Assembly (NCBI GenBank): GCA_018268785.1
Contig: JAFDVY010000009.1
Coordinates: forward strand, 1 to 55,783
Reading direction: 5' to 3'
Length of the DNA stretch: 55,783 nt
Source of the DNA: Acidobacteriota bacterium
Lineage (GTDB): Bacteria; Acidobacteriota; Terriglobia; Acidiferrales; UBA7541
Part shown: piece by piece, positions 17,739 through 53,509 of the stretch
Numbering within the stretch: the first letter of the stretch is position 1
Layout of the letters: every line of letters begins with the position of its first letter
The notes under the pieces: model-generated
What the model saw: the letters and a program-made list of their open reading frames with translations, nothing else
Databases searched by the model: none
What the model was told of the DNA's origin: nothing
Translations under genes and position numbers: made by a program

Positions 17739-17752
17739 TGCAATCGTTTACA
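17739..17752. promoter_or_regulatory. LacI-type operator upstream of GH51 gene
   Basis: TGCAATCGTTTACA is the exact reverse complement of the 14-mer before galK (25248-25261). It lies about 80 bp before the GH51 start, which fits repression by a LacI-type protein. It also argues against the upstream in-frame start at 17738, which would place the operator inside the coding region. Confidence 0.72.
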
Positions 17753-25247: not shown

Positions 25248-25261
25248 TGTAAACGATTGCA
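25248..25261. promoter_or_regulatory. LacI-type operator upstream of galK
   Basis: TGTAAACGATTGCA, the exact reverse complement of the site before GH51. It is about 110 bp before the galK ATG and 90 bp after the stop of the LacI gene. A TAGACT hexamer about 15 bp upstream could be a -10 box. The surrounding 210 bp contains no gene. Confidence 0.72.
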
Positions 25262-28846: not shown

Positions 28847-29998
28847 CTACAAGAACTCTTGAATTGGTTTTCCCTGAGAGAGTTCGGCTGAAAATCCCAT
28901 CATCGATCCGATCGTTGGAACCAGGTCCGTTGAATCCAGCGGACGGTCGTATACAATTCCTTCCCGCACTCCCGGTCCCAACGCCATCATCCATGTCGTG
29001 CGAGACATCACATCGCCCGTTCGATGGTGCTGAAAGCCGTTTCCGCCCGCGTCTTCGTCGGAGTCGCGCCCAAAATCCGGCAGAATGAACAGTGTGGTTT
29101 TCCCCGCATACTCCGGCTCGCTTTCAATCGCCTTCCACACTTCCAGGCAGAGCCGGTCGGTTCTCCGAATTCCGTCAATGTAAAGGGAATACGCTCCGGC
29201 GTGAGCGATGTCTATGTCGTGCATCGTGATCCACAAGAGACTTGGCGCCGCCTGCCGCATCAACTGGCGGACAATGTAAACGGAAAGCTCGTCGGGACTC
29301 GAAAGCGTAAGGGCGTGAGTCTTGAAATCGTTCACGGATAATTTCAGGAGAGTGCGCAACTGCTCCAGCTCAAATTCATTTCCAGCAACTTCCGGTGCAA
29401 AAAACGGGGTCTCATAGTTGTCGCGCAGGAGGTGTTCGTAGTCCGGAGTCCCTTTTGTCGCGGCCGTCAGCAAATGCTTTGGAAGGATTACTCGCGCGCC
29501 TTGTCCCGGCCCGTACGACCGGTGGCTGCTCTCTCCAATTCGATTGAATCCATTGCTTGGCGCGACGACCCACGCGTCCGATGCGGGCCGATGCAAATCT
29601 CTTCGAAAGTATTCGAAGACGGTGGGCGATTGCGGCGGCAGCGAGGCAAAATTATTGATCGTCTCGTAGACACCCGTCGCCAGGCTCGCTGTGGCAACGT
29701 AATGTCCGAGAATGCCCCGATTCACCACTTGCGTAAAAAAACTCGACTGCGGAATCAGCTCCCGCATCAGGTTTGGAATATTCTCTTGTCCTTCCGGCGC
29801 AAACGTTTCCTGATCTCGCGCACCGCCTCCGAACGTGATGACGACGACCTTGCGATCTTTTTGCGGTACGCCGGAGCGGGAGAATAGTCTGGAAGGGAGC
29901 AAAGTGCTACCGAGGGTCAATCCGGCGGCGGCGCGAAGGAAGTCGCGGCGATTTCGGGAGAGCTGCGTCATTACGGGTAATGAAGAGAATTTAGACAC
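28847..29998 (-). CDS. Tat-exported alkaline-phosphatase-superfamily (sulfatase-like) protein
   Basis: 383 residues from a GTG at 29998 with a good AAGGTGA site; an ATG at 29971 is an alternative. The twin-arginine signal 'SRNRRDFLRAAAGLTLGSTL' leads to an alkaline-phosphatase-superfamily core: 'VVVITFGGGARDQETF' at the metal/nucleophile end, 'ITMHDIDIAHAGAYSLYIDG' in the middle, and 'LFILPDFGRDSDEDAGGNGF' then 'HHRTGD' supplying late metal ligands. Relatives are sulfatases, phosphatases and phosphoglycerate mutases; the substrate here is unknown. The unknown gene follows after 6 bp, and a secreted TPR gene lies about 190 bp upstream on the same strand. Confidence 0.75.
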   Translation of the reverse strand: MSKFSSLPVMTQLSRNRRDFLRAAAGLTLGSTLLPSRLFSRSGVPQKDRKVVVITFGGGARDQETFAPEGQENIPNLMRELIPQSSFFTQVVNRGILGHYVATASLATGVYETINNFASLPPQSPTVFEYFRRDLHRPASDAWVVAPSNGFNRIGESSHRSYGPGQGARVILPKHLLTAATKGTPDYEHLLRDNYETPFFAPEVAGNEFELEQLRTLLKLSVNDFKTHALTLSSPDELSVYIVRQLMRQAAPSLLWITMHDIDIAHAGAYSLYIDGIRRTDRLCLEVWKAIESEPEYAGKTTLFILPDFGRDSDEDAGGNGFQHHRTGDVMSRTTWMMALGPGVREGIVYDRPLDSTDLVPTIGSMMGFSAELSQGKPIQEFL

Positions 29999-30184: not shown

Positions 30185-31588
30185 TCATGGACGTTGCGGC
30201 TCCTTCTCGTTGTACACAAACTGGCGGATGTCTGCGCGCTGCTTTTCCACATCGGCCAGATGCTGCTCACGTAGTTTTTGATAAACGGCCAGTTGTTCCT
30301 GTCCCTTATCTCGTTGCCCTGTTCGAACATACGCTTGGCCCAGGCGATAGTGCGCGTCGACGAGATCTCCATCCAGCTCCAACGCGCGCTGATATTGCGG
30401 AATCGCCTCGGCAAATTTTCCTTGATCCGAATTCAGGTTGCCCATCTGCACATAGGCTACCGCCAACTTTGGATCGGCGGCAATCGCTCTTTGCAGAAGT
30501 TCCGCAATCTGTTTGAGATTGAGTGTCGGATCCTGCGCCCGCTTCCCCTTCCACAAACTCATCGCGTAATAGTAGAGCGCCCTTCCATTGCCTGGCTGCA
30601 ATTCCGCATATCGGCGAAACCGTTCAATCACTTCATTCGCTTGATTCGGCGAACTATCGTACGCCCGCGACAAGAACTTGTAACACCGTGCATCCTCCGG
30701 GTCCAGATCCGCGCCGCGCAAGAACGCCCTCACCGCCTCATCGTAATTTCCACGCGCATAGTAGGCCATACCCAGCCCAACCATCAGCCGCGCCGAATTC
30801 GGATAGCGCTTTGTGGCCTCCTCGAACACCTGAACCGCCGGGTCCAGGGTTCGATGCAGAAGCAGTTCTCCGCCCCAATCGAACAAATTGTTTTCGCTCG
30901 GGTCCAAACGCGCCGCTGCTTGAAATTCGTTTGCCGCGATAACAAAATTGCCGTCTTTTTCTTCTACCTGTGCGAGCAGATTATGCAATTCCGCGGTTTC
31001 TTTGACTTTCAGCAATTGCTGGATGGCCGTTCGCGCGTCGGCAAGCCTTCCCGTCAACATGTAAGCGAGTGAAAGATTGTATCCGTTGTCATAGGAAGCA
31101 GAATTCAGCCGCTGCGCCTTTTCGAGATAGGGCAACGCCTGCGGCATCATACCTCGACGAATGTAAATCTCTCCCAAGTTGTGATTCGTTTCGTAATTGT
31201 TTGGGTCCAGCTCCGCTGCTTTTGCAAATTGTTCCTGCGCCAGATCCAATTTCCCAAGCCGCGCGTAACTCGCCGCCAGACTCGAACGCGCTTCCGCTGA
31301 GCCCGGCCTGAGCCGCACGGCTTTTGCCAGGTGCTCGTTCCCTTTCGCATCCACACCTTGCGCCGCGTAAACCAATCCGAGTAACTCCTGCACTTCAAAC
31401 GTGTCAGGGACTTCTCTCACGAGCTTCTCAAGCGGGGCAACAGCGTCCGCGTATCTTCCCGCTTCGTAGGCGGACACGGCAGCCCGATACAGCTGATCTT
31501 TATCTTCCTTTTCCTGAGCGCTTGCAGACCCAGAGCAACGAAGCAAGAGCACAGCCACCACTAGCGTAATAAGCTTTTTCCAACACAT
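30185..31588 (-). CDS. Secreted TPR-repeat protein
   Basis: 467 residues. A signal peptide (MCWKKLITLVVAVLLLRCSG...) is followed by at least eight tetratricopeptide repeats, e.g. 'YEAGRYADAVAPLEKL', 'PNNYETNHNLGEIYIRRGMM' and 'VDAHYRLGQAYVRTGQRDKG', and a charged C-terminal helix 'EQHLADVEKQRADIRQFV'. TPR arrays are protein-binding scaffolds. It shares the motif 'FDWGGELLLHR' and the same C-terminal helix with the TPR protein at 51982, so the two are paralogues. It follows the TonB receptor gene on the same strand but is separated from it by a terminator. Confidence 0.87.
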   Translation of the reverse strand: MCWKKLITLVVAVLLLRCSGSASAQEKEDKDQLYRAAVSAYEAGRYADAVAPLEKLVREVPDTFEVQELLGLVYAAQGVDAKGNEHLAKAVRLRPGSAEARSSLAASYARLGKLDLAQEQFAKAAELDPNNYETNHNLGEIYIRRGMMPQALPYLEKAQRLNSASYDNGYNLSLAYMLTGRLADARTAIQQLLKVKETAELHNLLAQVEEKDGNFVIAANEFQAAARLDPSENNLFDWGGELLLHRTLDPAVQVFEEATKRYPNSARLMVGLGMAYYARGNYDEAVRAFLRGADLDPEDARCYKFLSRAYDSSPNQANEVIERFRRYAELQPGNGRALYYYAMSLWKGKRAQDPTLNLKQIAELLQRAIAADPKLAVAYVQMGNLNSDQGKFAEAIPQYQRALELDGDLVDAHYRLGQAYVRTGQRDKGQEQLAVYQKLREQHLADVEKQRADIRQFVYNEKEPQRP

Positions 31589-31687: not shown

Positions 31688-34600
31688 TTAGAAAAGGAAT
31701 TTGAGCGCAAACTGGATCTGCCGCGGGTCATAAGGATTGTCACGCGTAGAGCCGATTTCGCCGAAGTGGCTGTTCGTCCAGTTCAACGAACCGCCGATGG
31801 AAACAACGCCGTTCCCGCCGAAGCCCGGCGCGTTGAAGTTCGGGTGGTTTGTCACGTTAAAGATTTCCGTGCGGAATTGGAGCTTGCGCTTTTCGTTGAA
31901 CGGAAAATCTTTGAAGATAGAAAAGTCCAGCCGGTGGAAGCCTGGGCCAGGAACCTGCGTGACTCCGCCCAAATTGGCGAAGGTGCAAGTACCCGCTCCA
32001 CCACAGGCTGGCGCGTCAATAAATGGGCTGTTTGAAAAATTAACTTGGTCAGGATCAAGAGCGGGATCGTACCCGAACCAGCTGAGTTGTCCGTTGTTAT
32101 TTGTATGAAGCCCGGTTTTTACGGTCTTTCCGCTAAACAACGCGCCGCATCCAGTACCCTGAAGACTGTTGTTCACGCAGGATAAAGTAATAGGCTGGCC
32201 ACCCTGGAGAGTCGCGATCCATTGCACGCTCCACCCTCCGACGAGCTTGTCTGTGATTCCACTGGCATCGGCCATGAATTTCTTGCCTTTGCCAAACGGT
32301 AGTTCATACCCGCCGCTCAGATGAAAGACGTTGCGAATGTCGAAATTCGCCAATTTGAAATCCTTCTGAATCCCGAAACCGGGAACTGAGGGCGCCCGAT
32401 ATCCAACGTTATCGCTGCCACCGTTGAGCAAGTCTCCAGCGTCAGACATTGTTTTGGCCCAGGTATACGTTGCGAGGAATGTGAGTCCGCCGCGGAACTG
32501 TTTTTCCACGCGAGTCTGCAGGCTATGGTAGTTGCTGCTGCCTTCCGTTTGAGCCTGACTGCTGCCTTGTCCGAAGTCCGGAAATGGGAGCAGGGTCGAC
32601 ACGGGCACGCTGCTGGGTTCGAGCGACGTCACGTTGTTGTTGCCCGGGAAAACTTCCAAATGCCGGGCCAGCGTCGTCACATACCCGGCCTGAACCGACA
32701 TTGTCGGCGTCAGTTGATATTGAACGGTCAAATTGCCGCCCATGGAATACGGCGTAAGGTAGTCGAATTGGATGCCGCGAAGGGATAAGCCACTCGCGTT
32801 CACGATTGCCGGATCAAGCGGCGAGCAACTGAAACCGGTTTCAAACGTCGGACCGCCGGTCGGTGTCGCAACGCAACCGTTCACGCCGTTCTGGAACTTG
32901 TTGTAGGGATGACCGGCATCGAGGTTCGTATATTGGAAGTTGAACTGGAACGGATAATTCTCGCCCAAATTGGGAGAAAATCCCCGGTTTTCAAATCCGT
33001 TGTAGAAGATGCCGAACCCGCCACGCACCACCAGCTTGGGATTCCACTGATATGCGAAACCGAAACGGGGGGCAAAGTTGGTTTTTTGCCCTTGCGCCAG
33101 ACTGCTTGTCTTTTCATATGTGGAGTTGACCAGCGCAATTCCATCCTGAGCAAGTAGTGCAATGAAACTTGGCGATAGATTGCCTGCATTTGCCCCGCCC
33201 TTGGGGATCAGGTAGGCAGGCCCGCCCGTTGGCGCTCCGTCCGGAATGAAGTTGGCTTGATTGCCGTGATGTTCATACACCGGCTGGAAGTAATCCCAAC
33301 GCACGCCGAGATTCAGCGTCAGTTTGTTGGTGACTTTCCAATCGTCATTGACGTAAACGCCGTAATAGTTCTTTCCGTTGTCCGTCAAAGAGATGTTGGA
33401 AACGAACACATTATTCGGACCGCCGACGTAGTCGATACCACCCGGAACGGAAGTCACTTGTGGGATCAAGAGCAATTGAGCTAGACCGACGTTGCCGCTC
33501 GTCTTACCCGGAACGTCCGTGTACGTACCGTCAAAGTTCATTTGTCCGCGGGACCAGGGTGGTTGCAGAGTCGAGAACTTCACGTGCTGCCACTCAAAGC
33601 CCATCTTGAATGTGTGTTTGCCGTAAATTTTCGTTAAGTCGTCCGTCAACTGAAAGGTGGAAGAAACTTCGTCCGACGGCAAGAAGGCATTGCTGCCCAG
33701 CGTCTGATAGCCGCTAATGCCGATTGCAGGCAACCCGCCATTTTCCGCCTGTTGCGGAATACGCAGGATTCCGAACTGCGAAGGTATATCGCTCAAGTCG
33801 TTGGCTTTAGGCGAAACTCGGGTCGTGTGCAAGTAATTCAAACCGGCCCGAACCACGTTGATCAAAGTAGGACTGAACGTGTGCGTGTAGCTAAATGCGC
33901 TTTGCTGCGCGTTCGCTGTCTGGTCCCCTTGCTGAAAGCCGCCGCCATCCGCGATGCCGGTGAAAATGCCGGGGATAAACTGCGGATCGTCCACCAAACT
34001 AAAGCGGAAGAAGAGTTGGTTCTTCTCATTGGCATTGATGTCCATGCGGGCATCGAATGCGTTACGGTGCTCAAACAGTTTTGGAGACACTGCGTAGTTG
34101 CTGAAGACGGAAGAGTTCGTGGGTTTCGGATAGAGTCCGAGCAGCTTTAGCGCGTTCGCGTCGATTAGACCTGCAGGCAACTGGTTCAAACCGCAGGCTG
34201 CCGTATACGCAAGGGTCGTAAGCGGATTACAAGTCCCAAAGGGGTCCCGGACAAACCCGCTATTCACAACATGCAATCCGGTAATGGGATCGACCGAACC
34301 AGCGGTTACTGCCCGCGTCGTCCTTGGATCGAAAACCGTTCCGGTCGGAAATGTTCTCTGGTTCGCCGCTGGGCATTTGTTGCCGGCGGTGGGAACAATG
34401 GAACACAGACCGTCGGTTTCCGTTCCTCCTTGCGTCAAGAGCTCACTCAGGTCTGTGAATCCGGTATTAATCATGTTTTGTGTAGGCACGGTACCTGTTG
34501 CCACTGTCCCCTGCACGCGGCGGAAACCTTCGTAGTCACCGAAAAAGAAAATCTTGTTCTTTATGATTGGACCGCCAGCCGCCACGCCGAACTGATTTTG

Positions 34601-35485
34601 GCGGAGCGCGCCTTTAGGAATACCGCCGGCGTTTTCGAAGAAGTCAGCGGCGTCCAGCTTGTCATTGCGAAAATACTCCCAGGCGGCGCCGTGCAATTCG
34701 TTCGTGCCCGATTTGATCGTGGCGTTAAGAACCGCAGCGCCAGATCGTCCATATTCCGCGCTGAAGCCGCTCGTTTGCACCTTGAATTCGGCGATCGCGT
34801 CCACCGGAGGCAACACTACGAAGTTTGTGCCGTTCAGGAAATCCACGGTGTCGGAGTTGTTGTCGATACCGTCGAGAAGATAATTGTTCTGAGCGGGCCG
34901 CGAACCATTCGCCGAAAAGGCCCCAGAGGCAGCATTGCCGCGCGTGTCCGCCTGCGGAGTATTTACACCAGCCGCGAGCTGCGCAAGAAAGGTAAAGTTG
35001 CGGCCATTCAACGGAAGGTCGTTCACGCTCTTCGAATCCACAATCTGCCCGACCGACGCATCTTGTGACTGCAGAACCGGTGCGCTGGATGTGACTTCAA
35101 TCGTTTCGCTCACCGCGCCCGGCTTCATCGAGAAATCCGCTACGACGCTTTGCCCGACGTTAACATTCACGCCGCGCAGTGCGGCCGTTTGGAAGCCCTG
35201 CATCGTCACACTGAGCTTGTAAGAGCCGATTCTCACCGGGGTAAATTTGTAACCCCCGTCTTCGCCGGTCGTCGTCGAAAGCGCAGCGTTTGTGCCTTCG
35301 TTGGTCAGAGTTACCGTCGCTCCGTTAATGCGGGCGCCGGACGAATCCGAGACAGTCCCCAAAATGGTGCCAGTATCAACCTGCGCCGAAGCCGACATCG
35401 CCGTCATCCATAGCAAGACCAGACAAGCTGCGCCGACTAACAGCAACCGCCGTCCACCCCAAAATCGAACGGTCTTCAAATCCAT
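31688..35485 (-). CDS. TonB-dependent receptor with N-terminal carboxypeptidase-regulatory-like domain (Oar-like)
   Basis: 1265 residues, ATG with a strong GGAGGGG site. A signal peptide ends near 'MSASAQVDTG'. A carboxypeptidase-regulatory-like Ig fold follows ('GTVSDSSGARINGATVTLTN', 'YKFTPVRIGSYKLSVTMQGF'), then a plug domain ('LPLNGRNFTFLAQLAAGVNT', 'YLLDGIDNNSD') and a large beta-barrel ending in phenylalanine ('IQFALKFLF'), as outer-membrane barrels do. This is the Oar-like TonB receptor type common in Acidobacteriota, thought to import oligosaccharides or other large ligands; the substrate is inferred only from neighbours. Two LacI-type operator dyads lie in its upstream region, and a terminator follows its stop. 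Confidence 0.93.
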   Translation of the reverse strand: MDLKTVRFWGGRRLLLVGAACLVLLWMTAMSASAQVDTGTILGTVSDSSGARINGATVTLTNEGTNAALSTTTGEDGGYKFTPVRIGSYKLSVTMQGFQTAALRGVNVNVGQSVVADFSMKPGAVSETIEVTSSAPVLQSQDASVGQIVDSKSVNDLPLNGRNFTFLAQLAAGVNTPQADTRGNAASGAFSANGSRPAQNNYLLDGIDNNSDTVDFLNGTNFVVLPPVDAIAEFKVQTSGFSAEYGRSGAAVLNATIKSGTNELHGAAWEYFRNDKLDAADFFENAGGIPKGALRQNQFGVAAGGPIIKNKIFFFGDYEGFRRVQGTVATGTVPTQNMINTGFTDLSELLTQGGTETDGLCSIVPTAGNKCPAANQRTFPTGTVFDPRTTRAVTAGSVDPITGLHVVNSGFVRDPFGTCNPLTTLAYTAACGLNQLPAGLIDANALKLLGLYPKPTNSSVFSNYAVSPKLFEHRNAFDARMDINANEKNQLFFRFSLVDDPQFIPGIFTGIADGGGFQQGDQTANAQQSAFSYTHTFSPTLINVVRAGLNYLHTTRVSPKANDLSDIPSQFGILRIPQQAENGGLPAIGISGYQTLGSNAFLPSDEVSSTFQLTDDLTKIYGKHTFKMGFEWQHVKFSTLQPPWSRGQMNFDGTYTDVPGKTSGNVGLAQLLLIPQVTSVPGGIDYVGGPNNVFVSNISLTDNGKNYYGVYVNDDWKVTNKLTLNLGVRWDYFQPVYEHHGNQANFIPDGAPTGGPAYLIPKGGANAGNLSPSFIALLAQDGIALVNSTYEKTSSLAQGQKTNFAPRFGFAYQWNPKLVVRGGFGIFYNGFENRGFSPNLGENYPFQFNFQYTNLDAGHPYNKFQNGVNGCVATPTGGPTFETGFSCSPLDPAIVNASGLSLRGIQFDYLTPYSMGGNLTVQYQLTPTMSVQAGYVTTLARHLEVFPGNNNVTSLEPSSVPVSTLLPFPDFGQGSSQAQTEGSSNYHSLQTRVEKQFRGGLTFLATYTWAKTMSDAGDLLNGGSDNVGYRAPSVPGFGIQKDFKLANFDIRNVFHLSGGYELPFGKGKKFMADASGITDKLVGGWSVQWIATLQGGQPITLSCVNNSLQGTGCGALFSGKTVKTGLHTNNNGQLSWFGYDPALDPDQVNFSNSPFIDAPACGGAGTCTFANLGGVTQVPGPGFHRLDFSIFKDFPFNEKRKLQFRTEIFNVTNHPNFNAPGFGGNGVVSIGGSLNWTNSHFGEIGSTRDNPYDPRQIQFALKFLF

Positions 35486-35551
35486 AACTCACCCCTCCTC
35501 AAATCCACACTCACGATTTCCAACTACTGACCGAGCTCATCCCTACAACTT

Positions 35552-35565
35552 CGTAAACGCTTACA
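35552..35565. promoter_or_regulatory. LacI-type operator, TonB receptor proximal
   Basis: CGTAAACGCTTACA, a near-perfect dyad (half-sites GTAAAC and GTAAGC) around a central CG, about 70 bp before the TonB receptor start. It has the same core as the site at 35667. Confidence 0.65.
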
Positions 35566-35666
35566 TCATCAATCAAAAAAACAGCCGACTCGTCACCACA
35601 AAGGGTTCACTACCCCAGGCCAGAACACCGACTTAGAGTTCCTCTTAGTTTAAGCGTTACAGATAA

Positions 35667-35680
35667 TGTAAACGCTTACT
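35667..35680. promoter_or_regulatory. LacI-type operator, TonB receptor distal
   Basis: TGTAAACGCTTACT lies about 115 bp from the proximal site, i.e. close to eleven helical turns. That spacing would allow looping by a tetrameric LacI-type repressor (inference). The site lies between the two divergent genes and could control both. Confidence 0.62.
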
Positions 35681-35844
35681 TTTTAACAGCACCCCTAATA
35701 CAAATCTACTACGATGGAGTCTCAATACCATTGTCCCTTTTCCCTTGTCAAGTATTTTTCTCGCTTGCAGCGCTCTTTCACACTTTTGTGGCGTATTTCC
35801 CTTGTTTTTGGGCATCTGTATTTTTTCGATGACGTGCCATTCTC

Positions 35845-38800
35845 TTGGCAAGCGTGGCCCTTATTCCTCGCCTTTTTCCACTCGGCACACGAGAGCTTGA
35901 GAACGTTTTCAATGACCGGCACAATATTCCTCAGGAAGTCGACGATGCTACCATTTCGCCTTCCACACAAAGGGGAATCGAGTCTGCGTACTCAAGCGCA
36001 TGCCATGTCCAAAGGAGCCTTCTGATTTCTCGCCGCCAATTTCTGCGCAGGACAAGATGGGCTCCTGCCCTGTTCTTGCCGGCACCATTGTGCGCAGGCC
36101 TTCGCAGCGGCTTCGCTACCCCGTTTTTCCATCCCGGTTTGCCGCTCTTTTCCGAAGGGCAGATCAACCCGCATTACCCTGCAGTTTCACCCGTGGAGGA
36201 GGTCATTCGCCTAGTCCAGCCCGGGGCGGATTCCTACCTTACGGAAAAATACGCGGCTGAGATTCACGTTGTCCTGAAGCAATGGCGCGACCGAATTCTT
36301 GCTGGCGGAGATTGGGTAGATCTTGCCGGGGAGTCAGTCGGAAGCGGTGCCGAATCAAATGTCCTTGAAAAGATTCACGAAGCAAAACGTGTATTGCCGA
36401 ATGGAGTTGAAGTAAGCCGCCGGGCATTTTCTCCGCCGACGCAACTCGACCGGGAGAGATTGCTTGTAGGGCTCAAGAAGGAGCTTTCAAATCCCGGAAA
36501 TGCGCGCACTGCGGAATTTGAAATCGTTGGCGTCAAGCAACTCTCGTCCCAGCCTCTTTCTGTGGAAACGCAAGTCCGTTACGCAATTGTTTACGCGCGA
36601 GAAACTGGCTCTCGGGAAGAACGGATCGGCTTCTGGAATTTGGTTTGGACGCAAAACGGCCGTGGTAATTGGAATATCGACAAATGGCGTTTCTTGATGG
36701 AGAACACATCTTTTTCGAAGTCGGCATTTTTCAAAGACGTCTCTCCGTCCTTGTTAGGCGATTGCGAGTCCTATAAGAATCAACTCTTGCGAGGCACGGA
36801 CTACTGGCGCACGGTGTTGGACGGCGCCTCTGGCATGGGCGTATACGGAAACAATGGCGTCGCTGCCGGAGATTTCGACAACGACGGCTTTGACGATCTG
36901 TATGTCTGCCAGCCTTCCGGCCTTCCTAACCGTCTCTATCGCAACCGCGGCGACGGGACATTCGAAGACGTCACGGAAAAATCCGGTGTCGGCGTGCTGG
37001 ATCCCACCGCCTGTGCTCTCTTTGCCGATTTTCAAAATCGTGGATTGCAGGATTTACTTGTCGTTTGCGATTCCGGCCCGCTCCTCTTTCTCAATCGAGG
37101 CAAGGGGCAATTCTCACTAAAACGCGATGCCTTTTCTTTCGCAACTCCTCCTCAAGGAACATTTACGCATGCTGCCGTCGCCGATTACGACCGCGACGGC
37201 CGCCTCGACGTCTATTTCTGTCTCTACGCTTATTATCTCGGCCTCGACCAATATCACTACCCTTCTCCCTATTTTGATGCGCGCAACGGTCCAGCCAATT
37301 TTCTTTTTCATAATGAAGGAAACTCCAAGTTCGTCGATCATACGAGAGATTCTGGGCTCGACGAGGAAAATGATCGCTTCAGTTTTGCCTGCGCCTGGGG
37401 CGACATGAACGGCAACGGCTGGCCCGATCTATATGTTGCAAATGATTTCGGGCGAAGCAATCTTTACCGCAACGACGGCAACGGCAGGTTCACCGCCGTA
37501 TCCGACTCGTCGGGAGCAAATGATGTCGGCGCGGGGATGAGCGCGTGCTGGCTGGATGTAGAAAACGACGGCAAACAGGACATCTATGTCTCTAATATGT
37601 GGTCAGCTGCTGGTCTGCGCATTTCCACGCAAGAAAATTTCCACCCCACCGACTCGCAGGAAATAAGGTCCTTCTATCGCCGCCATGCAGCGGGAAATTC
37701 TCTCTATAAGAATCTTGGCAACGAGCAATTCAAAAACGTGGCTGCTCTCGCCAAAGCGGAAATGGGTCGTTGGGCCTGGTCTTCCGACAGTTGGGATTTC
37801 GATCATGACGGTTATTCCGATTTGTATGTAGCAAACGGCTACATTTCTGGGATCGAGGCCAAGGAGCTTTCCAGTTTTTTCTGGCGCCAGGTTGCCGGCA
37901 ATTCTCCAGCCACCAACACGCCTTCCGCTTCCTACGAACGCGGATGGAACGCCATCAACGAACTCATCCGCTCCGATCATTCCTGGAGCGGGTATGAACG
38001 AAATACTCTTCTTTCAAACAACCACGACGGCACATTTTCCGACATGTCCGGAATTTCCGGGCTCGATTTTCCGGATGACAGCCGCGCCTTCGCTCTTGCC
38101 GATCTCAATCACGACGGCCGTCTCGAAATTATTTTGAAAAATCGCACGGCTCCTCAACTCCGAATCCTGCAAAACGTAATGCCCGGAATCGGCGATTCCA
38201 TCTGTTTTCGCTTGCTCGGCACAAAGAGCAATCGCGACGCAATTGGCACCTCAGTTACAGTTCGCTCAGCCGATCTCCTCCAAACCAAATACCTTCAGGC
38301 GGGAACGGGATTTCTCTCGCAACATACGAAAGAACTTTTCTTTGGACTCGGAAAATCTTCCGGCCCAATTTCGGCGACCGTCCGCTGGCCAAACGGCCTC
38401 ATGCAGAACTTCGAAAACATACCCGCAAACCAGCGCATTTCCATCGAAGAAGGCCAGCCGAAATTCTCCGCTGTTCCTTTTCCAAGCGGCGCAAATTCCC
38501 CAAAAACTCCACAAAGCAGTCTTCCGGAGCAATTCCCCGCCGCCACTGCAACCTGGTTGCTCGACCCGCTCCCAGCTCCAGAATTTTCTCTCTCCGATTC
38601 TTCCGGTCTGGCTCAGACTCTTGTTTCCTTTCGTGGCAAACCTCTTCTCCTCAATTTCTGGTCCGTAAATATCGCCGCGGCCCTTAATCAACTGAAAGCT
38701 TTTCAACGAGCCCAAAACGAATTCTCTGCAAAGCACCTTCGCATTGCCTGCATCAACCTCGACGAAACGTTCACTGCGTCGCAACTCGTGGCCCTGGCCG

Positions 38801-39822
38801 CCAAGGAAAATCTCTCGCTCCCGCTCCTCCTCGGCTCTTCAGAAGTGGCCGGCGTCTACAACATCATCTATCGCTACCTCTTCGACCGTCGCCGCGATCT
38901 TTCCCTCCCCACTTCTTTTCTACTCGACGAGTCCTCCAATATCGTCAAAATCTACCAAGGCCCAACCGATCCAAGGCAAATCCTCGCCGACTCTGCAAAT
39001 ATCCCGCGCACGTACGAAGCTCGCGTCTACAAAGCCCTTCCTTTTCCGGGCGTACTCCACAATGGCCGCTTCCAGCGAAATGCGTTTACCTACGGTGTCG
39101 CGCTTTTTCAGCACGGCTATCTCGATCAAGCCGCCGCGTCTTTCAAACAGGTAGCTGCAGCGCAACCAGAAAATGCCGAAGCCTTCTACAATCTCGGCAC
39201 ACTCTATCTCCGCAAAAACAATATCGACGAAGCGCGGAACTTCCTCAAACAAACAGTCGAACTAAAGCCCGATTACCCGGAGGCTTGGAACAATCTCGGC
39301 ATGATTGCCGTCCAGCAAAATGACGCTGTAACCGCCATTGACAATTTCCGCCGCTCTCTCGAATTCCGCCCGAACTATGTCACCGCCATGCTGAATCTGG
39401 GCAACGTTTTTCGCCGCCAGGGCAATCTCTATGAAGCAGGAAAACTCTTGAATCAGGCAGTGCAACTCGAACCCGAAAACGCGGAGGCCAATTACAGCCT
39501 CGGCATGTTTTTCGCGCGCCAGGGTGACAACGGCAACGCAGAGCCGCTTCTGCAAAAAGCCGCCGCGCTTCGTTCGAATTACGCCGAAGCCATCAACAAT
39601 CTCGGCGTCCTATTCATCCGCGATGGCAAAAACGCCGAAGCTGAGCAACAATTCAAACATTGCATCTCCGTCGCTCCCAGCTTTGACCAGGCCTATCTGA
39701 ATCTCGCCCAGCTCTACGCCATTGAAAAGCAAAACGACAAAGCCCGCGCAATCCTGGAAGCCCTTCTCAAACTTCAGCCACAACACAAATTGGCTCGCCA
39801 GGCGCTGGAGATGCTACATTGA
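35845..39822 (+). CDS. Large CRTAC1 fusion: FG-GAP repeats, ASPIC/UnbV, Cys-less thioredoxin-like domain, TPR array
   Basis: 1325 residues from the first legal codon (TTG). The first 59 residues do not look coding. A Tat-type signal 'ISRRQFLRRTRWAPALFLPA' directly follows an AGGAG site at 36013-36017, so the real start may be a CTG/ATT at 36022-36025. Calcium-binding FG-GAP/VCBS repeats span about residues 340-750 ('DFDNDGFDDLYV', 'DMNGNGWPDLYVANDFG', 'DFDHDGYSDLYVANGY'). An ASPIC/UnbV domain covers about 800-870 ('GLGKSSGPISATVRWPNG'). A thioredoxin/AhpC-like fold covers about 910-1045 ('KPLLLNFWSVNIAAALNQL'), in which the usual CxxC is replaced by non-cysteine residues. TPRs run from about 1070 to the end. 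Expected to be exported; the function is unknown. Its stop overlaps the next gene's TTG start. Confidence 0.85.
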   Translation: MASVALIPRLFPLGTRELENVFNDRHNIPQEVDDATISPSTQRGIESAYSSACHVQRSLLISRRQFLRRTRWAPALFLPAPLCAGLRSGFATPFFHPGLPLFSEGQINPHYPAVSPVEEVIRLVQPGADSYLTEKYAAEIHVVLKQWRDRILAGGDWVDLAGESVGSGAESNVLEKIHEAKRVLPNGVEVSRRAFSPPTQLDRERLLVGLKKELSNPGNARTAEFEIVGVKQLSSQPLSVETQVRYAIVYARETGSREERIGFWNLVWTQNGRGNWNIDKWRFLMENTSFSKSAFFKDVSPSLLGDCESYKNQLLRGTDYWRTVLDGASGMGVYGNNGVAAGDFDNDGFDDLYVCQPSGLPNRLYRNRGDGTFEDVTEKSGVGVLDPTACALFADFQNRGLQDLLVVCDSGPLLFLNRGKGQFSLKRDAFSFATPPQGTFTHAAVADYDRDGRLDVYFCLYAYYLGLDQYHYPSPYFDARNGPANFLFHNEGNSKFVDHTRDSGLDEENDRFSFACAWGDMNGNGWPDLYVANDFGRSNLYRNDGNGRFTAVSDSSGANDVGAGMSACWLDVENDGKQDIYVSNMWSAAGLRISTQENFHPTDSQEIRSFYRRHAAGNSLYKNLGNEQFKNVAALAKAEMGRWAWSSDSWDFDHDGYSDLYVANGYISGIEAKELSSFFWRQVAGNSPATNTPSASYERGWNAINELIRSDHSWSGYERNTLLSNNHDGTFSDMSGISGLDFPDDSRAFALADLNHDGRLEIILKNRTAPQLRILQNVMPGIGDSICFRLLGTKSNRDAIGTSVTVRSADLLQTKYLQAGTGFLSQHTKELFFGLGKSSGPISATVRWPNGLMQNFENIPANQRISIEEGQPKFSAVPFPSGANSPKTPQSSLPEQFPAATATWLLDPLPAPEFSLSDSSGLAQTLVSFRGKPLLLNFWSVNIAAALNQLKAFQRAQNEFSAKHLRIACINLDETFTASQLVALAAKENLSLPLLLGSSEVAGVYNIIYRYLFDRRRDLSLPTSFLLDESSNIVKIYQGPTDPRQILADSANIPRTYEARVYKALPFPGVLHNGRFQRNAFTYGVALFQHGYLDQAAASFKQVAAAQPENAEAFYNLGTLYLRKNNIDEARNFLKQTVELKPDYPEAWNNLGMIAVQQNDAVTAIDNFRRSLEFRPNYVTAMLNLGNVFRRQGNLYEAGKLLNQAVQLEPENAEANYSLGMFFARQGDNGNAEPLLQKAAALRSNYAEAINNLGVLFIRDGKNAEAEQQFKHCISVAPSFDQAYLNLAQLYAIEKQNDKARAILEALLKLQPQHKLARQALEMLH

Positions 39823-42350
39823 GAAAAATCTCGATGCGCGCGTGTCTCACGATCGTTTTATGTTGCCTGGCCGCGGCCTGCCAGTTCTCCTGCGCGCTTT
39901 GCGCAAACGCGCGGCAATCCGCAACGCGACCAGCGCATAAAACTGCACAGAAAACAGACCCGCGTTTCCAGGAAGCCCAAAGCCTTCTCGAGCAAGGCCG
40001 CCCCGAAGAAGCGAAACAAAAAGTTCAGGAGGAATTGGCCAAGAACCCAAAAAGCGTCGAAGGCTTCAATCTCCTCGGCATCATCGAGGTCTCCCAAAAA
40101 CATTTCGACGCAGCTCTCGACGCCTTCGAGCGCGCGCTCAAGTTGAATCCCGTCTCCTCCCGCACAAAAATAAACATCGGCAATCTCTATGCCGCTCAGC
40201 AGAAACTCGATGCCGCGGAAAGGGAATTTCGCGAAGTCCTCCGCGCCACGCCCGCAAATAGGGAAGCAAACTACAATCTCGGCTTGATGCTGCTGGCAAA
40301 AAATCAGGCTGCCGCCGCAGTTCCTTTCTTCGAAAAAGTCTCCCCGCCCACCACCGAATCGCAAATCAATCTGCTCCGCGCCTGCCTTCTGTCAAATCGC
40401 TCTGCCCGGGCGATCTCCGTCGCAAACAATCTATCCGCCCGAAATCCGAACGACGTCCAGCTTCACCTGACCCTCGGCGTAATCCTCGCCGCCGGCAAGC
40501 AATACAAGTCCGCGCAAGTCGAATTTGAAAAAGCCAACGCCCTGCAACCCGAAAATCCCGACACCCTTTTCAATCTCGGCCAGGTCTATCTTCGCTCCGG
40601 CGAATACTCGAAAGCTGAACTCGTGCTGAAGCGCCTCCAAACTCTCAAACCCGATTCTCCGGACGCGCTCTCTCTCCTCGCACAGGTTTACACCGACCAA
40701 TCCCGCTCCGTGGACGCGCTGGAACTTCTCGCGCGCGCTCACAAGCTCGCTCCTGAAAACACCGACATCATCTTCTCTCTCGCCCGGGCAAGCATGGCGC
40801 AAAACTATTTCGAGGACGCGATTCCCCTTCTTGAAACCGGCATTAAGCTCGCTCCCAGTCGCCCCGATCTCCAGGCCGCACTTGGCGAAAGTTATTTCAT
40901 GTCTGGCCGCACGGAAAAAGCCATAGACGAATTCAAACACCTCGTCGAAATCGATCCCACCGCCCGCTCTTACGCGTTCCTCGGACTTTCCTACCGCCAC
41001 CTCGGCCGTTTTGACGAAGCGCGCACCTACTTCGAACAAGGCCTTAAGCTCGATCCCCGCAACGCTTCGTGTCTATTCAACATGGGTTACATCGAAGGAC
41101 GTCAAGGCAATCAAGCAAAAGCCGAAGACTTCTTCCAGCAAACTCTCAAGGCCAATCCCGATTTCGCCGACGCGCTCTTCGAGCTGGCAAATTTGCGTGT
41201 CAACGAAAAGCGCTTCGCCGAAGCCGCCGGCCTCCTTCGCCGCTACGTCAAAGTCAGCAAAGATCCCGCTTCCGGCTACTACAAACTCGCCATGGTCGAG
41301 CGCAGCCTCAAACAAACGGACGCCGCCCAGCGCGATCTCAGCGTTTTTCAGACTCTTTCAAAAAACACTTCCACCGGCCCGTATCCTTTTCAGCATCTCT
41401 TCGATTACCTCGACAATCGCGCCACACTTTCTTCCCGCGAACGCACCCAGCTCGACCTGACCGAGCTTTCCAACCAGATCAAAACGCATCCTGGCCGCCC
41501 TCAGGATTTTTATTCCCTGGCCGAAGCTTATTTGAAACTGGGAAGAATTGACGAAGCCCGCGAAGCGATCAAACAACTCGATGACCTCAGCTCCAGCGAT
41601 TTCCGCATGCAGGGCGGCATCGGCGCTCTTCTTGCGCGCAACCGGCTTTACGACGAGGCCATCGCCCACTTTCAATCCGCCGCAAAAGCCAATCCCGATT
41701 CCGACGACGTAAAATTCGATCTCGCCGACGCCTATTTCCGTAAAGGTCAATTCGCACAAGCCAACGAAATCGCGCAAACCGTTTCCGCCGAAGGCCAAAG
41801 AGACGACGCGTTCCTCGCACTCCTCGGCGACATCAACTCTCGTCTCGGCGATCCAGCCAAAGCCTCGCAAATCTTTCAGGATGCCATTCGACGCAATCCC
41901 GACAACGATCAGTACTACCTTTCGCTCGCTCTCGTGCAACTTCGCGCAGGCAATCTTCCCGAAGCCGAAAACATTCTCAATCGTGGTCTTACCCGGGTTC
42001 CCTCTTCCGGAAAAATTCTCTGGGGACTCGGCGTCGTTTCGGCGCTCCGCGGAAATTCCTCGCAGGCCGCCACTCAGCTGGAACGCGCCGTCGACCTTCT
42101 CCCAGAATGGCCCGGCAGCTATTCCACTCTCGGCGTCTTCTACTACCAGATCGGTCAGTACGACAAAGCTCGCGAAGTTTTTTCGCGCTTCAAAGGTAGC
42201 CACTCCTCCGGCGGATTCGATATGAACCGCATCGAACAAGCTCTCGCCAACGCTCCACAAATTTCCGCAGCCACCGCGCAACCTCTTCCCATTCCCGCAC
42301 GCCAGCAATTCTTGCAGATCGCGCTATCTCTCGCAGACCGGACCTTATGA
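39819..42350 (+). CDS. Exported TPR protein, probable lipoprotein
   Basis: 843 residues. The TTG at 39819 overlaps the previous stop (TTGA) and has GGAG 8 bp upstream; an ATG at 39834 is the alternative. The signal region 'MRACLTIVLCCLAAACQFSC' has a lipobox-like LAAAC. The rest is almost wholly tetratricopeptide repeats, for example 'PKSVEGFNLLGIIEVSQKHF', 'PDTLFNLGQVYLRSGEYSKA' and 'PDSDDVKFDLADAYFRKGQF'; I estimate around 18-20. It probably anchors in an envelope membrane and scaffolds partners, the obvious ones being the co-translated CRTAC1 proteins on each side. SusD proteins also have a TPR framework, but there is no sequence similarity I can claim. Confidence 0.85.
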   Translation: MRKISMRACLTIVLCCLAAACQFSCALCANARQSATRPAHKTAQKTDPRFQEAQSLLEQGRPEEAKQKVQEELAKNPKSVEGFNLLGIIEVSQKHFDAALDAFERALKLNPVSSRTKINIGNLYAAQQKLDAAEREFREVLRATPANREANYNLGLMLLAKNQAAAAVPFFEKVSPPTTESQINLLRACLLSNRSARAISVANNLSARNPNDVQLHLTLGVILAAGKQYKSAQVEFEKANALQPENPDTLFNLGQVYLRSGEYSKAELVLKRLQTLKPDSPDALSLLAQVYTDQSRSVDALELLARAHKLAPENTDIIFSLARASMAQNYFEDAIPLLETGIKLAPSRPDLQAALGESYFMSGRTEKAIDEFKHLVEIDPTARSYAFLGLSYRHLGRFDEARTYFEQGLKLDPRNASCLFNMGYIEGRQGNQAKAEDFFQQTLKANPDFADALFELANLRVNEKRFAEAAGLLRRYVKVSKDPASGYYKLAMVERSLKQTDAAQRDLSVFQTLSKNTSTGPYPFQHLFDYLDNRATLSSRERTQLDLTELSNQIKTHPGRPQDFYSLAEAYLKLGRIDEAREAIKQLDDLSSSDFRMQGGIGALLARNRLYDEAIAHFQSAAKANPDSDDVKFDLADAYFRKGQFAQANEIAQTVSAEGQRDDAFLALLGDINSRLGDPAKASQIFQDAIRRNPDNDQYYLSLALVQLRAGNLPEAENILNRGLTRVPSSGKILWGLGVVSALRGNSSQAATQLERAVDLLPEWPGSYSTLGVFYYQIGQYDKAREVFSRFKGSHSSGGFDMNRIEQALANAPQISAATAQPLPIPARQQFLQIALSLADRTL

Positions 42351-44098
42351 CCATGCGCCCCTCCGCGCTGTGTATTGCAATTCCGCTTGCTCTTGGCCTT
42401 TTTCTTGCTCCTGCGGCCCGGCAAAAACCTGCTCCGCTACAAGGTGTCAAAAAATCCGACGCACGCATCCCCGTCCGCTTCACCGACATTCGCAAGCAAG
42501 CCGGAATCACGTTTCTCCAGGATTCCACGCAGACTGAAGAAAAGCTCTATCTCGAAACGATGGGCACCGGCGTCGGCTGGCTCGACTACGATCAGGACGG
42601 CCTCATGGACCTTTACTTCGTTCAGTCCGGCCCCACCGAACTCTACAAGCCCGATCATCCGATGCGTTCCGCGCTCTATCGCAACAATGGCGACGGCACA
42701 TTTACCGATGTCACAGAAAAAGCCGGCGTCGCCGCGGAAAACCACTACGGCCAGGGAGTCGCTATCGCGGACTACGACAACGACGGCTACCCGGACATCT
42801 ACGTCACCGGTTACGAGCGCGCGATTCTCTATCACAACAATCGCGACGGCACGTTCACCGACGTCACAGAAAAAGCCGGCGTCGCCGATGAAGGCGGTTG
42901 GTCCACCAGCGCGGGCTGGCTGGATTACGATCACGACGGCTATCTCGACCTCGTCGTGCTCAATTACATTGAGTGGTCGCCGAAAAATAATCTCTGGTGC
43001 GGCGAACATCGCCCGGGCTATCGCTCCTACTGTCATCCGGGAAATTACAAAGGCCAGAAACTCAAGCTCTATCACAACAATCACGATGGCACGTTCACCG
43101 ACGTCAGCGACTCTTCGGGAATCGGCAAGCCCGAAGCCAAAGGCATGGGGGTTGTTACCGCCGACTTCAACAACGACGGCTGGCCCGACATTGCCGTCGC
43201 CAACGATTCCTGGCCGAACTTTCTTTTCATCAACAAACACGACGGTACGTTTCAGGATGTTTCTTTCGTCTCCGGCATCGCTGCCAGCGAAGACGGCCGT
43301 TACGAAGCGGGCATGGGTATTGACGCCGCGGACGTTGACGGCGACGGCTTCCAGGACATCTACATCACTCACCTCGACTTCGAATTAAATCGTCTTTACA
43401 CCAACAATCGCGACGGCACATTCACCGATGCCACGTTCAGTTCTGGCATTGGCAACAAGGCCATTCTCCTCAGCGGCGTCTCCATGAAGTTCATGGACTA
43501 CGACAATGACGGCTGGCCGGACATTGTTCAGCTCAACGGCGCGATGGTGGACAACGTCGAGTTGTACCATAGTGAAGTCAAGTACAAGGAGCCTCTGTTC
43601 ATGCTCCGCAATCTCGGCAAAGGCCAGTTCGAGAAAATTCCCGACGGCGCTCTCGGCCCGGATTTCAGCCGCCCCATCGCGGGCCGCGGCATCGCTACCG
43701 CTGATTTTGACAACGATGGCGATCTCGACATCGCCATCAACAATCGCGGCGACTATCCCATGCTCCTCCGCAATGACGGCGGCAACGCCAATCACTGGCT
43801 TGAAATTTTGCTCATCGGGACAAAATCCAATCGCGACGGCATCGGCGCCTCACTGAAACTTACCGCCGAAGGCGAGACTCACGTTGAGCAATCCAAAGGC
43901 GGCATGAGTTACATGTCCGCCAGCGATCCCCGCATCCATTTCGGTCTTGACAAGCGGACCAGGGTCGAATTGCTCGAAATCACCTGGCCCAGCGGCCAGA
44001 TCGACCGCCTCAAAGACATCCCCGTGGACAAAATCATCGCCATCAAAGAAGGCGTCGGCATCATCCCTCGCAACTTCCCCAGGGTCCCCTCCAAATGA
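42347..44098 (+). CDS. CRTAC1-family protein (FG-GAP repeats with ASPIC/UnbV domain)
   Basis: 583 residues, starting inside the stop of the TPR gene (ATGA). A signal peptide (MTMRPSALCIAIPLALGLFL) leads to seven or more FG-GAP/VCBS calcium-loop repeats: 'DYDQDGLMDLYF', 'DYDNDGYPDIYV', 'DYDHDGYLDLVV', 'DFNNDGWPDIAV', 'DVDGDGFQDIYI' and 'DFDNDGDLDIAI'. Several are followed by a 'NRDGTFTDVTEKAGV' blade motif. The C-terminus is an ASPIC/UnbV domain ('GIGASLKLTAEGETHVEQSK', 'ITWPSGQIDRLKDIP'). It is predicted to be a secreted seven-bladed propeller; the ligand is unknown. The tight coupling to its neighbours points to a complex. Confidence 0.9.
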   Translation: MTMRPSALCIAIPLALGLFLAPAARQKPAPLQGVKKSDARIPVRFTDIRKQAGITFLQDSTQTEEKLYLETMGTGVGWLDYDQDGLMDLYFVQSGPTELYKPDHPMRSALYRNNGDGTFTDVTEKAGVAAENHYGQGVAIADYDNDGYPDIYVTGYERAILYHNNRDGTFTDVTEKAGVADEGGWSTSAGWLDYDHDGYLDLVVLNYIEWSPKNNLWCGEHRPGYRSYCHPGNYKGQKLKLYHNNHDGTFTDVSDSSGIGKPEAKGMGVVTADFNNDGWPDIAVANDSWPNFLFINKHDGTFQDVSFVSGIAASEDGRYEAGMGIDAADVDGDGFQDIYITHLDFELNRLYTNNRDGTFTDATFSSGIGNKAILLSGVSMKFMDYDNDGWPDIVQLNGAMVDNVELYHSEVKYKEPLFMLRNLGKGQFEKIPDGALGPDFSRPIAGRGIATADFDNDGDLDIAINNRGDYPMLLRNDGGNANHWLEILLIGTKSNRDGIGASLKLTAEGETHVEQSKGGMSYMSASDPRIHFGLDKRTRVELLEITWPSGQIDRLKDIPVDKIIAIKEGVGIIPRNFPRVPSK

Positions 44099-44315
44099 AC
44101 TTTGTGCACGGAAAAAAAACCGGTCATTTCGAACGGAGAAGGGCGATATCTTCTCTTCCGCTTCGCTCCTGCAAAGCGTCGCCCTTCGGATGTGAGAAAT
44201 CTATCTTCGATCGCTCCTCCACGCAAAATTCTCTGCGTTCTCTGTGGTCCGACCTCCGTGAACTCTGTGTAACTTTTTCTTTCTTTCCTGGTTTCGACAC
44301 ATTCGAGGCACACCG
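44099..44315. repeat. Intergenic inverted repeat (dispersed-repeat-like)
   Basis: The 217-bp gap between two CRTAC1 genes holds an exact 9-bp inverted repeat, GAAGGGCGA (44138-44146) and TCGCCCTTC (44179-44187), able to form a long stem-loop. A segment resembling 'TCTGCGTTCTCTGTGG' filler follows. No gene is visible. It may be a remnant of a chromosomal dispersed repeat or an mRNA processing site. Confidence 0.4.
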
Positions 44316-46112
44316 ATGATCTTCCCGCGCCGCCGCTTCCTTGGCTCCTCCTTCACCGCTCTCGGCGGCTCTCTCCTTGATGCCCTCGTCACTCCGCTCT
44401 GGCGCTGGAAATCGCCGCTGCTCCTGCAATCGTCGAAACCCAATCCCACAAAATCCCCCGTCCAATACGTTGACGTCGCGCGCGAAGCTGGTCTCACCAC
44501 TCCCAACGTTTGGGGCGATCCCAACACTAAGAAATACATCATCGAAGCCAAAGGCTCTGGCATTGCCTTTTTCGATTACGACCACGACGGCTGGCTCGAC
44601 ATCTATCTCACCAACGGTTCGCAACTCGGCAAGGAATGGCCCGCAGGCAAAGCGCCCACTACGCATCTCTACAAGAACAATCGCGACGGTACTTTCACGG
44701 ATGTTACGGAAAAATCCGGCATTGGCCGCTCCGGCTGGCAAACCGGCGTTTGCGTTGGCGATTACAACAACGACGGTTGGGACGATCTCTTCTGCACCTT
44801 CTGGGGACACAACATTCTGTTTCGCAACAATGGCGACGGCACCTTCACCGACGTCACCAAACAAGCCGGCCTTTACAACGAAGAAATTCGCTGGGGCTCC
44901 GGTTGCACGTTTCTCGATTACAATCGCGACGGCAATCTCGATCTCTTCGTCTGCAATTACATCAAGCTCGATCCCGCAAAAAATCCCGATCCCAATGGTC
45001 CGCCGCTCTGCCAGTGGAAAGGCATTCCCGTTATGTGCGGACCGCGCGGCCTTACCGGCGACACGAATATCCTTTACAAAAACAATGGCGACGGCACGTT
45101 CACCGATGTCTCAGAAAAATCCGGAATCCTCAAACCCGGCGGCCGCTACTCCATCACCGCCGTCTCCTACGATTTCGATAACGACGGCTGGCCGGACATC
45201 TACGTCGCTGTGGACTCGCAGCCCAGCATTCTTTTTCAGAACAACCACGACGGCACCTTCTCCGACGTTGCTGTCGTCGCCGGTTGCGCCTATAGCGACA
45301 ACGGCCACGAACAAGCCGGCATGGGCGTCGCCGTCGCCGACTACGATTGCGACGGCTGGTTCGATATTTTCAAAACAAATTTTGCAGATGACACTTGCAA
45401 CCTCTACCATAACAATGGCGACGGCTCTTTCACTGACGTCACTTTCGCTTCGGGAGTCGGTGTCAACAATCAATATGTCGCTTGGGGCTGCGGCTTCGTG
45501 GATTACGACAACGACGGCTGGGCCGACATCATGCAGATCAACGGCCACGTCTACCCGCAGATAGACGGTCACAATCTCGGCCAGACTTACAAGAACCCGC
45601 GCATCGTCTATCGCAACATGGGTCCGGGAACTGGCGGAACGGTGGCGTTCAAGGATGTCTCCGCGGAAATGGGCCCGGGCATCTCGGAAAAATTCTCCAG
45701 CCGCGGCGCCGCATTTGGCGACTACGACAACGACGGCGGCATAGACACAGTCATCTTGAATCTCGGCGACACACCATCATTGCTACACAACGTGGGCGGC
45801 AATGCGCAAAACTGGATCAAGCTCAAACTCATCGGCACCAAGTGCAATCGCACCGCAATCGGCGCTCGCGTACGCGTCGTTACCGGCACGCACGCTCAAA
45901 TGGACGAGGTTCACTCCGGCTCCAGCGTCATGTCCCAATCCGACTTGCGTCTCCACTTTGGTCTCGGCAAATCCGCCATCGTGGATGTCATCGAAGTAAA
46001 ATGGCCCACCACTCAAAAAGTCGAACGTTTCGTCAAAGTCCCCGCCAACCAAATCCTAACCATCCGCGAAGGCTCCGGCATCGTCCTCTCCTCAAAACCT
46101 GGTTCAAAGTAG
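44316..46112 (+). CDS. CRTAC1-family protein with Tat-type signal (FG-GAP plus ASPIC/UnbV)
   Basis: 598 residues. It begins with a twin-arginine-type signal 'MIFPRRRFLGSSFTALGGSL'. FG-GAP/VCBS loops follow: 'DYDHDGWLDIYLTNGSQLG', 'DYNNDGWDDLFC', 'DYNRDGNLDLFVCNYI', 'DFDNDGWPDIYVAVD', 'DYDCDGWFDIFKTNFA' and 'DYDNDGWADIMQINGHVYPQ'. The ASPIC/UnbV end is 'IGARVRVVTGTHAQMDEVHS' and 'HFGLGKSAIVDVIEVKWPT'. It resembles the gene at 42347 throughout, so the two probably arose by duplication, but here export is by Tat rather than Sec. It is separated by 217 bp from that gene and may have its own promoter. Confidence 0.9.
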   Translation: MIFPRRRFLGSSFTALGGSLLDALVTPLWRWKSPLLLQSSKPNPTKSPVQYVDVAREAGLTTPNVWGDPNTKKYIIEAKGSGIAFFDYDHDGWLDIYLTNGSQLGKEWPAGKAPTTHLYKNNRDGTFTDVTEKSGIGRSGWQTGVCVGDYNNDGWDDLFCTFWGHNILFRNNGDGTFTDVTKQAGLYNEEIRWGSGCTFLDYNRDGNLDLFVCNYIKLDPAKNPDPNGPPLCQWKGIPVMCGPRGLTGDTNILYKNNGDGTFTDVSEKSGILKPGGRYSITAVSYDFDNDGWPDIYVAVDSQPSILFQNNHDGTFSDVAVVAGCAYSDNGHEQAGMGVAVADYDCDGWFDIFKTNFADDTCNLYHNNGDGSFTDVTFASGVGVNNQYVAWGCGFVDYDNDGWADIMQINGHVYPQIDGHNLGQTYKNPRIVYRNMGPGTGGTVAFKDVSAEMGPGISEKFSSRGAAFGDYDNDGGIDTVILNLGDTPSLLHNVGGNAQNWIKLKLIGTKCNRTAIGARVRVVTGTHAQMDEVHSGSSVMSQSDLRLHFGLGKSAIVDVIEVKWPTTQKVERFVKVPANQILTIREGSGIVLSSKPGSK

Positions 46113-53334: not shown

Positions 53335-53509
53335 GGATTCTGGCAAGTTCACCGGGAACCTGAACTTTACATTGAGGAATCAGCTTAGCGTGAGGTGTCT
53401 GCTACCGCAAAGGGTGAGAAAGAAAAGAACTTTGGCTCGCCTAAGTGGACGATCTTAGAACTCTTCTTGGCGAACTTGTGGCAAGCCTGCCAAATCGCAG
53501 CTAAGGCGT

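Follow-up and report, generated by a model that had tools for sequence, protein, structure and literature searches.

A candidate SusD-less uptake cassette pairing an Oar-type TonB-dependent receptor with CRTAC1 propellers and tetratricopeptide repeat proteins in Acidobacteriota

Introduction

Here, we describe a conserved gene cassette of a soil bacterium of the Acidobacteriota in which the gene for an Oar-type TonB-dependent receptor diverges from a run encoding a CRTAC1 fusion, a long tetratricopeptide repeat (TPR) protein and two CRTAC1-family propellers. It lies in a window of 55,783 nucleotides, the whole stretch of DNA that was analysed, which is contig 316 of a draft genome of 4.24 Mb. 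With moderate confidence, we favour the view that the cassette serves the LacI-controlled, TonB-dependent import of galactose/arabinose oligosaccharides without SusD, a reading that draws on directly observed features, namely the gene content, the conserved order, a distinct Oar clade, the operator sites, the absence of SusD and the linked catabolic genes.

In the proposed mechanism, Oar would bind an oligosaccharide containing galactose and/or arabinose at the cell surface and import it using TonB energy, with exported TPR proteins and calcium-stabilised CRTAC1 propellers beside it that may act as receiving, scaffolding or binding partners, and the neighbouring glycosidases and galactose/arabinose enzymes would then use the imported product. 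The same chassis (Oar, the fusion and a CarboxypepD-TPR protein), fitted with another Oar clade, would serve nucleosides elsewhere. The direction of transport, the substrate, the periplasmic location of the partners and their physical contact are the parts of this mechanism that we infer.

Organization of the cassette

A first-pass annotation of this DNA had proposed five genes, with the Oar receptor divergent from a CRTAC1 fusion/TPR/CRTAC1 run around an operator-bearing region. All five (Oar, fusion, long TPR and two CRTAC1 genes) lie where it placed them with their domain assignments upheld, and the divergent arrangement is borne out by coordinates, domains and palindromes. The conserved unit is larger than these five, as it also takes in unkA, unkB, TPR2 and CarbTPR, giving about nine genes in all:

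27635..28840, minus strand: unkA, 401 residues, without evident signal peptide, at the end of the Oar-side run
28847..29998, minus strand: unkB, 383 residues, Tat-type signal, predicted alkaline-phosphatase/sulfatase-superfamily fold
30185..31588, minus strand: TPR2, 467 residues, Pfam TPR, Sec-type signal, immediately downstream of Oar
31688..35485, minus strand: Oar-type TonB-dependent receptor, with CarboxypepD_reg, Plug and PF25183 (E 2.8e-211)
36000..39822, plus strand: fusion, with Tat-type signal, FG-GAP propeller, UnbV_ASPIC, thioredoxin-like domain without CxxC, and TPR; probable start ATG 36000, open frame from TTG 35845
39819..42350, plus strand: TPRL, the long TPR protein, Sec-type signal in relatives
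42347..44098, plus strand: first CRTAC1-family propeller, seven DxDxDG calcium motifs, UnbV_ASPIC
44316..46112, plus strand: second CRTAC1-family propeller, Tat-type signal PRRRFLG, seven DxDxDG motifs
51982..53352, minus strand: CarbTPR, CarboxypepD_reg plus TPR, conserved at the far end of the cassette

Oar on the minus strand and the fusion/TPRL/CRTAC1 run on the plus strand thus diverge across a region with LacI-type operators. The window also encodes an arabinofuranosidase, GH2, GH97 and GH3 proteins and galK-galT.

Conservation and Oar phylogeny

The order TPR2-Oar, diverging from fusion-(TPRL)-CRTAC1-(CRTAC1)-CarbTPR, is found in dozens of genomes, both of the same genus and of named Acidobacteriaceae; within the genus it reads TPR2-Oar, diverging from LacI-fusion-TPRL-CRTAC1-CRTAC1 and, further on, CarbTPR. 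When GTDB contigs were scanned, 80 named loci came up, belonging to Acidobacteriaceae, Bryobacterales and a small number of other groups. Among the carriers are Acidicapsa dinghuensis, Edaphobacter lichenicola, Acidobacterium sp. S8 and Terriglobus roseus DSM 18391 (NC_018014.1), the last with Oar at about 3507727-3511602 and the fusion at about 3511710-3515645, and the closest cassettes among named genomes are those of Acidobacteriaceae. The first-pass annotation had named absence from relatives as grounds for giving up the association, and the order in fact recurs across the family. Among fusion loci of at least 20 kb (n=46), 40 have Oar, 35 CarbTPR and 24 CRTAC1; of the random 20-kb loci drawn from the genus, 5/12 have Oar.

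These cassettes fall into two paralogous types, A (that of the window) and B, and the split is mirrored in an Oar phylogeny built with FastTree. The type A cassette Oars, the window's included, make up a single clade of 27 tips, and 12 type B Oars a separate one, each with a support of 1.0, with second Oars present by chance in the same loci, and three Oars of other type B-like loci, falling outside the cassette clades.

Two further homologous loci may be mentioned here. Elsewhere in the genome (contig C66, 9001-29000), another CRTAC1 cluster contains a 1178-residue CRTAC1-like protein, a homologue of the fusion propeller and an Oar gene, and a fusion homologue with 47% identity occurs on a contig labelled Armatimonadetes (bog_944), possibly through misbinning or transfer.

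Cargo of the two cassette types

The two types differ in the catabolic genes that surround them. A GH2, GH97, GH36, GH27 or galK gene is near 16/42 type A loci, 2/29 type B loci and 0/32 random loci, and the converse holds for a nucleoside hydrolase, ureide/sugar permease or deaminase gene, which is near 21/29 type B loci and none of the 42 type A or 32 random loci. This clean split supports what may be a reusable uptake chassis with changeable cargo, although the P values attached to it overstate independence since the loci are related by descent. Type B keeps the fusion, Oar and CarbTPR, with its other Oar clade, and is a candidate nucleoside-uptake system. Its neighbours include genes for a nucleoside hydrolase, a PfkB-type kinase and a ureide/sugar permease.

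LacI-type operators and regulation

At no more than one mismatch, the motif TGTAAACGMTTRCA has four sites in the entire genome and all are in the window: one at the arabinofuranosidase run, one at galK-galT and two between Oar and the fusion, where the divergent region has operator-like palindromes GTAAACGCTTAC at about 35553 and 35668. The relevant features are as follows:

35552..35565, plus strand: predicted LacI-type operator CGTAAACGCTTACA, from motif scan
35667..35680, plus strand: predicted LacI-type operator TGTAAACGCTTACT, from motif scan
25248..25261, plus strand: operator motif TGTAAACGATTGCA upstream of galK-galT, from motif scan
17739..17752, minus strand: operator motif TGTAAACGATTGCA upstream of the arabinofuranosidase-epimerase-isomerase run, from motif scan
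24161..25156, plus strand: LacI-family regulator beside the galactose genes, probable local regulator

Allowing up to two mismatches gives six sites in the window (6952, 17739, 21817, 25248, 35552 and 35667) against 0.88 expected, the two extra ones being located before GH2 and between GH3 and a LacI gene. With its four best sites confined to the window within the genome, this has the appearance of a compact LacI-type regulon, for which a sugar would be the presumed signal.

Relatives of the same genus have a LacI gene in the gap separating Oar from the fusion, together with conserved TTAAnCGCTTAA boxes. The corresponding gap of the window (35486-35844) is missing this gene while the operators are retained, and therefore the cassette has probably been rewired to the galactose/arabinose locus. 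The nearest window homologue of the relatives' cassette LacI is the LacI encoded at 24161, with 41-44% identity, which is probably the local regulator; a second LacI, at 7029, is a less likely choice, having only ~28% identity to the cassette LacIs compared with ~43% for that at 24161. More widely, boxes of the TGTAAnCGnTTACA type are present in 10/17 of the gaps between Oar and fusion (Acidobacteriaceae loci plus the window) against 0.15 under a Markov null, a comparison that is generous because the box pattern was chosen after some of the gaps had been viewed. A scan for sigma-70 promoters performed no better than shuffles. At three loci, other Oar genes of the genome also adjoin a LacI-family gene, which suggests that the Oar-LacI pairing is common in this genome.

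The fusion, TPR and CRTAC1 proteins

The fusion combines six FG-GAP repeats, UnbV_ASPIC, an AhpC/TSA-like domain and TPRs. Its alignment with relatives begins only at about residue 60, at the Tat signal SRRQFL, which rules out TTG 35845 as the start, whereas ATG 36000 opens an N-terminus, MPCPKEPSDFS, that matches that of relatives but is in another frame than the body of the protein. A one-base indel in the draft within the signal region (36000-36032, with the frame change near 36032) is therefore likely, and could be an assembly error or a real lesion. The thioredoxin-like domain lacks the redox CxxC, as WSVNIAAA replaces WCxxC in the window protein and none of the 11 fusions aligned has a conserved cysteine at this position; it is probably not a redox enzyme.

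Both CRTAC1 proteins have the features of that family, namely an FG-GAP propeller with calcium motifs, seven DxDxDG in each, and UnbV_ASPIC, and the one encoded at 42347-44098 matches the human CRTAC1 structure 9etn (E 7e-24). The TTGA and ATGA overlaps reported to join the genes of this run are both present, at 39819 and 42347 respectively. In relatives, only some of these junctions have such 4-base overlaps, so that translational coupling is only a minor argument.

Signal peptides were judged by eye. On this basis, we assign Sec-type signals to TPR2 and the TPRL of relatives and Tat-type ones to the fusion, one CRTAC1 and unkB, from which the propeller and TPR partners are probably periplasmic. 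The window TPRL has a cysteine-rich signal, while its relatives show ordinary Sec signals that point to soluble exported proteins, and the earlier assignment of this protein as a lipoprotein is not supported. A receiving or scaffolding role for the propellers and TPR proteins in the periplasm is one that we infer from the signals, the gene order and their co-inheritance.

Comparison with known systems

The closest point of reference is the SusCD-type polysaccharide utilization locus of Bacteroidota, which likewise has a TonB barrel with an N-terminal carboxypeptidase-regulatory-like domain, helical TPR partners, a sugar-responsive regulator (in our case a presumed one) and linked glycosidases. 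The differences are nevertheless substantial. SusD_RagB (PF07980) and SusD-like_3 (PF14322) have no match in the whole genome, with a positive Bacteroides control, which extends to the genome the claim that no SusD homologue is present. The barrel has the features of an Oar, with CarboxypepD_reg, a plug and PF25183, and no SusC/RagA model is among its NCBIfam hits at E <= 0.001. The TPR partners appear to have Sec signals rather than surface lipoprotein signals, the cassette adds CRTAC1 propellers and Tat-type signals, and the regulator is LacI-type. Judged by its sequence, the cassette is not a SusCD-type locus, because the genome has no SusD, the barrel is Oar-type and surface lipoproteins are not evident from signals read by eye. 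We weighed TPR2 and TPRL as SusD analogues but did not take this up, as a TPR solenoid is by itself too generic a feature and their location signals do not match such a role.

The earlier reading of a SusD-less uptake system is consequently well supported in its main part, because SusD is absent, the LacI operator is common to the arabinose and galactose genes, galactose-active hydrolases are near the loci of relatives, and the Oar clade and order are conserved; what is not supported is a TPR surface lipoprotein as a stand-in for SusD, and the complex that it read from the coupling stays putative, the observations being co-occurrence, order and partial start-stop overlap.

Two other systems share individual components. 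The Oar of Myxococcus xanthus, also an Oar-type TonB-dependent barrel, is needed for export of the protease PopC (PMC6434023), although there the context is protein secretion in development and here it is sugar and nucleoside catabolism. Cartilage acidic protein 1 (CRTAC1; PDB 9etn) has the same FG-GAP propeller plus UnbV_ASPIC, but is a vertebrate extracellular protein, whereas those described here are bacterial and one is fused to a thioredoxin-like domain (without CxxC) and TPRs. Within the phylum, the available portion of a paper covering Ca. Solibacter usitatus lists TonB-receptor and ASPIC/UnbV as paralogue families (PMC3174227), and that portion describes neither the cassette nor the fusion nor a linked function. 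In the open-access literature, we found no published account of the cassette and no papers that treat CRTAC1 together with Acidobacteriota, or ASPIC/FG-GAP together with SusC/SusD.

Alternative explanations

Several points count against an uptake system for galactose/arabinose oligosaccharides. Only ~38% of type A loci have galactose-active genes nearby, shared ancestry inflates all P values, and the presence of Oar in 5/12 random loci of the genus makes proximity alone weak evidence, for which reason the Oar clade and the conserved order are the stronger arguments. Furthermore, as Oar is needed for PopC export in M. xanthus, direction cannot be deduced from family alone.

It is conceivable, though we think it unlikely, that Oar is an ordinary importer and that the propeller/TPR run has a separate function, as a surface or periplasmic scaffold, in adhesion or in calcium homeostasis, with only the operator region in common and no uptake machine formed. 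TPR and FG-GAP proteins are generic scaffolds, and a survey of the phylum (40 CRTAC1 loci from 15 other genomes, with 20 random loci) found CRTAC1 often with a TPR gene (22/40 vs 3/20 random) and less often with Oar (7/40 vs 1/20). The CRTAC1-TPR link is thus a general association in the phylum, and the link to Oar belongs mainly to this lineage, being strong in the genus and in Acidobacteriaceae; the conserved TonB-CRTAC1-TPR order that the first-pass annotation proposed to look for across Acidobacteriota holds at these closer ranks and is weak, in its Oar component, beyond them. What stands against a separate function is that a matched Oar clade and a conserved divergent order persist over dozens of species, and that the differently loaded type B cassette retains the fusion, Oar and CarbTPR.

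We regard export as the main functional rival, in which Oar would be an exporter, as reported in Myxococcus for PopC, and the CRTAC1 and TPR proteins would either be its cargo or assist in secretion. Besides the M. xanthus precedent, the genes next to that of the barrel do encode several large proteins whose Sec or Tat signals mark them for export. Nutrient uptake is the better fit, however, both for LacI operators common to sugar catabolism and for cargo-specific neighbours (galactose in type A, nucleosides in type B), which are harder to square with the secretion of one protein family, and we consider export distinctly improbable.

That two families expanded in the same genome (~40 Oar genes and 17 UnbV_ASPIC matches in 4.2 Mb) simply meet by chance, as the frequency of Oar in random loci might suggest, can be largely dismissed, given that Oar is within ~10 kb in 10/13 CRTAC1-bearing contigs of the genome against ~23% expected by our estimate from Oar number and genome size (binomial P ~6e-5), which is more than chance, and that the order is fixed and the partner Oars monophyletic in many species.

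The unkA and unkB proteins

Neither unkA nor unkB has a Pfam or NCBIfam family, the sole match of unkB being a sub-threshold TAT_signal. The AlphaFold2 model of unkA (predicted local distance difference test, pLDDT, 90) has a weak likeness to alkaline-phosphatase-superfamily folds (best E 0.002, template modelling score, TM, 0.32), and its gene is conserved adjoining the cassette in relatives. For unkB (pLDDT 76), Foldseek gave 429 PDB matches at E <= 0.001, the best at 1.4e-9 to sulfatases with TM ~0.5, and a sulfatase/alkaline-phosphatase-superfamily fold is predicted. Inspection of the alignment by eye revealed no invariant C/SxPSR, and thus no CxPSR/SxPSR sulfatase signature; an invariant His99 is near the position where sulfatases carry their nucleophile. 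The modelled fold raises the prospect that unkB may process the imported substrate. It is found in 21/95 genomes of the order, all within the genus of the window, where a table counting close homologues shows that it co-occurs with the type A fusion (both 18, neither 14, fusion only 3, unkB only 1; Fisher P 3e-6).

Concluding remarks

More tentatively, the cassette might represent a separate class of outer-membrane uptake machine that stands in the place of SusCD, with an Oar barrel, a periplasmic set of fusion, TPR solenoids and Tat-exported calcium propellers, and one Oar clade for each cargo (galactose sugars or nucleosides); we find this possible but rather doubtful.

In soil, Acidobacteriota rank among the most abundant bacteria. 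A conserved and regulated cassette whose cargo switch can be recognised, in a genome that has ~40 Oar-type receptors but lacks SusD, would offer a direct handle on the uptake of plant sugars and nucleosides, would assign a testable role to bacterial CRTAC1 proteins, and would place unkA and unkB, two families absent from Pfam and NCBIfam, in a functional context.

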